Shown: positions 10,866 through 11,076 of the stretch, in pieces | Position numbering within the stretch: the stretch's first letter is position 1 | Layout of the letters: each line of letters begins with the position of its first letter | Source: Deltaproteobacteria bacterium | GTDB taxonomy: Bacteria; Myxococcota_A; UBA9042; DTJE01 | Length of the DNA: 62,245 nt | NCBI GenBank assembly: GCA_029547805.1 | Contig: JAKPOP010000030.1 | Span: 1-62,245, forward strand | Direction: 5' to 3' | Position numbers and translations under genes: made by a program | Notes under the pieces: generated by a model | The model's input: only the letters and a program-made list of their open reading frames with translations | Told to the model about the DNA's origin: nothing | The model's database searches: none

Positions 10866-11041
10866 TGGATGTCCTCCTGCCTTCGGGTTGCAACCTGCGG
10901 GGGCCTCAGGGAACGGGAGGCCGGTCCCTCGCGGCGGGAACGCCCCGGCCGCGGGACCGGCCGTCAACAGGTACATGAGAGACGGGGGGGCGCGGCCGGA
11001 ACCGGTCCTGAACAGACGGACATGGCGACGTGCCACTTCAT
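10866..11041 (-). promoter_or_regulatory. Structured 5' leader of the metY operon, candidate riboregulator
   Basis: From the predicted start of transcription near 11041 to ATG 10865 the leader is about 175 nt. It contains a large hairpin: arms GGCCGGTCCC (10919-10928) and GGGACCGGCC (10953-10962), extended inside by GCGGC/GCCGC and GGG/CCC. Just downstream, CCTCCC on the transcript (10915-10920) overlaps this hairpin and is complementary to the AGGAGG ribosome site. The two pairings are mutually exclusive, a layout typical of translational control. It does not match a SAM-I, SAM-II or SAH consensus that I can recognise. Confidence 0.45.
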
Positions 11042-11047
11042 GGGCCG

Positions 11048-11076
11048 ATAATAGTTTACTTCTACAATCATGTCAA
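11048..11076 (-). promoter_or_regulatory. Near-consensus sigma-70 promoter of the metY operon
   Basis: On the minus strand TTGACA (11071-11076) is followed by a 17-bp spacer and TATTAT (11048-11053), with 11 of 12 consensus bases. It lies in an AT-rich island in otherwise GC-rich DNA. Start of transcription is expected near 11041. Confidence 0.8.

Follow-up and report, generated by a model that had tools for sequence, protein, structure and literature searches.

We propose that the leader of metY in the 62,245-nucleotide stretch of DNA analysed here (hereafter, the window) responds to charged tRNA-Cys, and possibly to Met-tRNA too, as a ribosome-mediated attenuator, a reading to which we assign a probability of roughly 0.72. 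The sequence and its comparison with relatives reveal a predicted promoter, a short upstream ORF (uORF) with in-frame UGU codons, a fixed spacing between codon and hairpin, conservation of that hairpin and reuse of the plan at both metY and metX (Table 1). The placing of cysteine codons against a hairpin, ahead of genes for cysteine and methionine, is consistent with ribosome-mediated attenuation, and since Met stands next to Cys in several of the leader peptides (MMC, RMCC), methionine may be sensed as well. A preliminary description of this locus had noticed the promoter and the hairpin and had overlooked the short ORF with its cysteine codons.

Table 1. Features of the metY leader and operon (positions in the window)
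Feature	Position	Strand	Basis or remark
-35 box TTGACA	11071..11076	-	sequence, promoter scan
-10 box TATTAT	11048..11053	-	17-nt spacer; ends 6 nt before uORF ATG
Short ORF, 25 codons, leaderless (predicted)	10964..11041	-	promoter and ATG, Cys codons
Cys-Thr-Cys codons TGT ACC TGT directly before TGA stop	10967..10975	-	sequence and comparison
Hairpin, arms GGCCGGTCCC / GGGACCGGCC	10919..10962	-	complementarity, folding, comparison
CCTCCC tract, partly within the last bases of the 3' arm; possible but unsupported anti-Shine-Dalgarno	10915..10920	-	sequence
Shine-Dalgarno AGGAGG of metY	10873..10878	-	sequence
metY, O-acetylhomoserine aminocarboxypropyltransferase / cysteine synthase	9549..10865	-	TIGR01326
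Class I methyltransferase frame, overlaps metY end; probably same operon	8776..9555	-	
Cystathionine beta-synthase (TIGR01137), probably same operon	7421..8779	-	

The sigma-70 promoter upstream of metY (11 of 12 consensus matches, minus strand) is the only promoter-like site between positions 10000 and 13000, where 0.2 would be expected from shuffled sequences, and it bears out the near-consensus TTGACA-N17-TATTAT element described earlier. Its -10 box lies 6 nt before the uORF ATG, a distance at which transcription is expected to start; this would put the 5' end of the mRNA at or beside this ATG and is compatible with a leaderless start. The gene that follows scores 709 bits against TIGR01326 (cut-off 495), which identifies it as metY. 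The metY, methyltransferase and cystathionine beta-synthase frames overlap briefly and thus probably form a single operon. On the opposite strand, a frame of the beta-lactamase family (PF00144; window positions 11030-11947, plus strand), probably a decayed gene, starts mid-domain, overlaps the metY promoter and apparently continues in a different frame after position 11728. Positions 11958-14441 (minus strand) encode an 827-aa protein with an endonuclease/exonuclease/phosphatase domain (PF03372) and a C-terminal part that by eye resembles a glycoside hydrolase.

Between the promoter and metY lies the short ORF, whose last codon before the stop is UGU (Cys) and is followed 4 nt later by the 5' arm of the hairpin. 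All three of its Cys codons are TGT, which is rare in the genes of the window (13% of Cys codons, 38/286). When both strands of the 62-kb window were scanned for a sigma-70-like promoter placed 4-9 nt ahead of the ATG of a 12-45-codon ORF, the metY-leader ORF was the sole place retrieved. Taken alone, the Cys enrichment of the window copy is modest, with 3 Cys in 25 codons corresponding to P 0.08 by dinucleotide shuffling and P 0.008 from the proteome Cys frequency. None of ten leader peptides compared with NCBIfam gave a match.

The leader measures 176 nt from the uORF ATG to the metY ATG (11041-10866), one more than the 175 nt previously counted, while the 10-bp perfect hairpin reported with it is exact, its arms (10962-10953 and 10928-10919) being complementary over all 10 bp. 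Its description as a structured leader applies to the local hairpin, which folds better than chance, and not to the whole leader, where shuffled sequences fold equally well (z -0.06), so that the bulk of this structure is merely high GC. The hairpins of all copies surpass dinucleotide shuffles, with z ranging from -1.5 (the window copy) to -4.0, and the Stouffer z over 11 leaders is -10.4, though such statistics overstate significance because the leaders share ancestry. Every copy has 4 nt between UGU and the hairpin base, close enough for a ribosome stalled at the Cys codons to reach the structure. A consensus scan found neither a U-tract after the hairpin nor an intrinsic terminator, and folding gave no consistent sequestration of the ribosome site.

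A similarity search with the leader DNA against 53 relatives gave no match outside its own genome, and leaders were therefore collected by their position upstream of metY. Seven such leaders were obtained from six genomes of the family, and in these the -10 box ends about 4-7 nt before the ATG of an ORF of 25-31 codons that has Cys towards its end. The peptides diverge while the Cys is kept: the window copy ends in SCTC-stop and that of the nearest relative in CFCIC-stop, with one synonymous TGT/TGC swap between them, and the other family peptides have the ends RMCCSRPA..., RCRRPA-stop, CSCRRPA-stop, MMCLGPGRGRR... and MMCPGPGRGRR.... A consecutive Cys run is absent from the window copy (C-T-C), CC occurs in some relatives only, and several copies have a single Cys codon each. 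The plan recurs before metX in the same genome as the window (peptide end MMRRPGTGRPLVGTGMMCPGPGRGRRPTA-stop), before metX of genomes G011 and G012, where the ORF starts with GTG or TTG and by its position is not leaderless, and before metY of genome G124 (peptide end MCFSSECFLRCCSLHRAAACMCMWPAA-stop); outside the family but within the phylum, a metY leader has the peptide end ...ACMCMWPAA-stop. No such ORF was found before one Myxococcota metY (L040/L121), before cysS of the family or in the part of the family cysE upstream regions examined. One genome has two metY copies (G008:C190, loci L032 and L119, and G008:C267, locus L002) with different subtypes of Cys-uORF leader.

The seven family metY leaders, the metX leaders of the window's own genome and of G011 and G012, and the metY leader of G124 make up a set of 11, which was anchored on the last Cys codon or, in the G011 and G012 metX leaders, on the second-last. 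Each of the 11 has an in-frame TGT, exactly 4 variable nt, GGCCGG and, further on, a near-invariant CCGGCC, in which T occupies the first base in one copy and the last base in one. In the ten-pair stem, 93% of cells are paired, as against 29-47% with the partners slid; the covariation is 0.189 versus 0.090 in shuffles (0 of 500), and three pairs have changed on both sides. The comparison of metY leaders in related genomes, which had been suggested as a check, thus yields a conserved plan and some stem covariation. RNAalifold keeps seven pairs, with a covariation term that is small because the stem base hardly varies. The in-frame Cys codons number 26, with 11.9 expected (Poisson P 3e-4, for leaders that are related), and UGU is conserved in frame throughout; the +1 frame holds 19 Cys codons, so the conservation may be partly at the nucleotide level. 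In 13 genomes, a covariance model gave the ten family copies 39-54 bits and no other site more than 30 bits, which, since these copies trained it, indicates specificity for metY and metX and not independent discovery. Across the family and 379 genomes of the phylum, the matches to this model inspected beyond the training copies look like chance in coding sequence, and the other inspected matches to short nucleotide patterns, searched genome-wide, fall in coding sequence or are without the promoter-ATG plan.

We infer that the metY leader is translated leaderless and that ribosomes stall in it. Transcription would start at or beside the uORF ATG, allowing a ribosome to load directly on the 5' end and to make the 25-codon peptide ending in Cys-Thr-Cys-stop, with the base of the hairpin 4 nt past the last UGU. 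When cysteine is plentiful, the ribosome would reach the stop and depart, the GGCCGG/CCGGCC hairpin would form and the metY-methyltransferase-cbs operon would be damped; when cysteine is scarce, the ribosome would wait on UGU and cover the 5' arm, the hairpin would not form and the operon would be expressed. This direction of response, in which starvation opens expression, is suggested by the logic of the arrangement and by precedent. As the candidate output step, we lean slightly towards Rho or a tailless terminator in preference to translational action. Given that there is no intrinsic terminator and no consistent sequestration, the leader can be said to work like an attenuator and is not a proven classical member of that group. 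The strict spacing from codon to hairpin makes the mechanism testable.

The preliminary description took the leader for a candidate new riboregulator with emphasis on SAM sensing. It is probably a cis-acting controller of metY, but nothing indicates SAM or SAH sensing. That metY is a usual riboswitch target, and that UGU-N4-GGCCGG/CCGGCC is invariant with UGU never replaced by UGC, suggesting constraint at the nucleotide level, would suit an RNA that binds a ligand (SAM, SAH, cysteine or homocysteine) independently of protein and to which the short ORF is incidental. We nevertheless regard such a riboswitch as improbable, as what is conserved at the core amounts to a hairpin alone, with a variable interior and no conserved loop or junction, and the in-frame UGU of 11/11 leaders would be left unexplained. 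In agreement with the earlier statement that the leader matches no known class, Rfam covariance searches found only one tRNA over the whole window at the gathering threshold and chance-level matches over positions 10800-11200 at a relaxed threshold.

Translational attenuation, in which the CCTCCC tract would pair with the metY Shine-Dalgarno under control of the ribosome or the hairpin, is also unlikely. Pairing is possible between CCTCC and GGAGG in the window and between GCCTCC and GGAGGC in G006, and a review (PMC9031893) describes mycobacterial leaderless Cys ORFs as regulating the translation of genes downstream. However, the leaders of G008a and G012 have, by inspection, no matching anti-Shine-Dalgarno, and the folding model does not support the ability of CCTCCC to sequester the ribosome site, as once proposed: opening this site in the window costs 8.7 kcal/mol with the hairpin intact and 9.2 kcal/mol with the 5' arm masked, so that masking does not cut the cost, and across the leaders its effect goes in either direction. 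Least probable, and very unlikely, is a chance or constitutive leader, in which a random short ORF and a GC-rich hairpin follow a strong promoter and regulate nothing; the folding of the whole leader and the weak single-copy Cys enrichment would agree with it, but not a plan conserved with fixed spacing in 11 leaders of two genes and peculiar, within the family, to metY and metX.

The attenuator proposed here points to a wider pattern, in which Cys-rich short ORFs stand before metY in several phyla. Among 80 metY loci surveyed from public genomes, such ORFs also occur in Acidobacteria-type MAGs (L043, L079), Acidimicrobiia (Actinobacteria) and many Bacteroidota, with a longest run of nine consecutive Cys codons. 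At the Thermoanaerobaculia metY locus L079 (about 1850-2130), the Cys-rich ORF MSTGRNSFLPSTGTQTCPMCMCCMHARGQGASTE precedes a hairpin whose tail is rich in T, an arrangement resembling a classical transcription attenuator. The SAM-I riboswitch (RF00162) was found just upstream of the Cys ORF in all ten Bacteroidota and Acidimicrobiia loci scanned, viz., L083, L101, L103, L106, L113, L116, L117 and L118 (Bacteroidota or Bacteroidota-like, where ORFs behind SAM-I often have runs of 4-9 Cys) and L086 and L089 (Acidimicrobiia or related). A literature search, which was not exhaustive, found no published description of this pair before metY, which would place two RNA sensors in series for both ends of the sulfur pathway.

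Leaders of a similar kind have precedents. These SAM-I metY leaders control the same gene and, in the loci examined, have a Cys uORF after the aptamer, whereas the window has no SAM aptamer. In mycobacteria, as described in PMC9031893 and PMC9094748, leaderless polycysteine short ORFs (Canestrari et al. 2020, Mol Microbiol) are the first ORFs of sulfur-metabolism operons and mediate attenuation by cysteine supply. As in mycobacteria, a Cys-codon short ORF, here predicted to be leaderless, heads a sulfur-metabolism operon; unlike the mycobacterial systems, the present one belongs to another phylum, has other peptides, in which the rare UGU codons are few and spaced and form no Cys run, has an invariant hairpin 4 nt after the last UGU, and targets metY and metX. 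Candidate cys/cbs leader peptides of Actinobacteria, encoded ahead of cys or cbs operons, likewise carry Cys codons close to the stop, and no intrinsic terminator was found with them, but nor was a conserved hairpin (PMC1262725), which the metY leader has. The uORFC-8-2 motif upstream of cysS in Rhodobacterales, interpreted as a case of ribosome-mediated attenuation (PMC8632094), is similar in combining a uORF, whose Cys codons are in tandem, with hairpins, but it ends in a U-run intrinsic terminator and controls cysS, whereas the metY leader has no U-run and cysS of this family no such ORF. Having no Cys run and no terminator, and having a fixed hairpin of its own, the metY leader is not assigned to the mycobacterial, actinobacterial or uORFC-8-2 kinds. 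If the proposed mechanism is true, leaderless ribosome-sensed control by cysteine extends from Actinobacteria to an uncultured family of Myxococcota. We tentatively raise the possibility of a distinct Myxococcota attenuator class, in which a leaderless ORF would hold a rare UGU fixed 4 nt from an invariant GGCCGG/CCGGCC hairpin without U-tract, and this ribosome-gated hairpin alone would report cysteine, perhaps methionine, to metY and metX. The metY leader looks to work like the known Cys leader ORFs, with a peptide-hairpin arrangement that appears to be its own variant.
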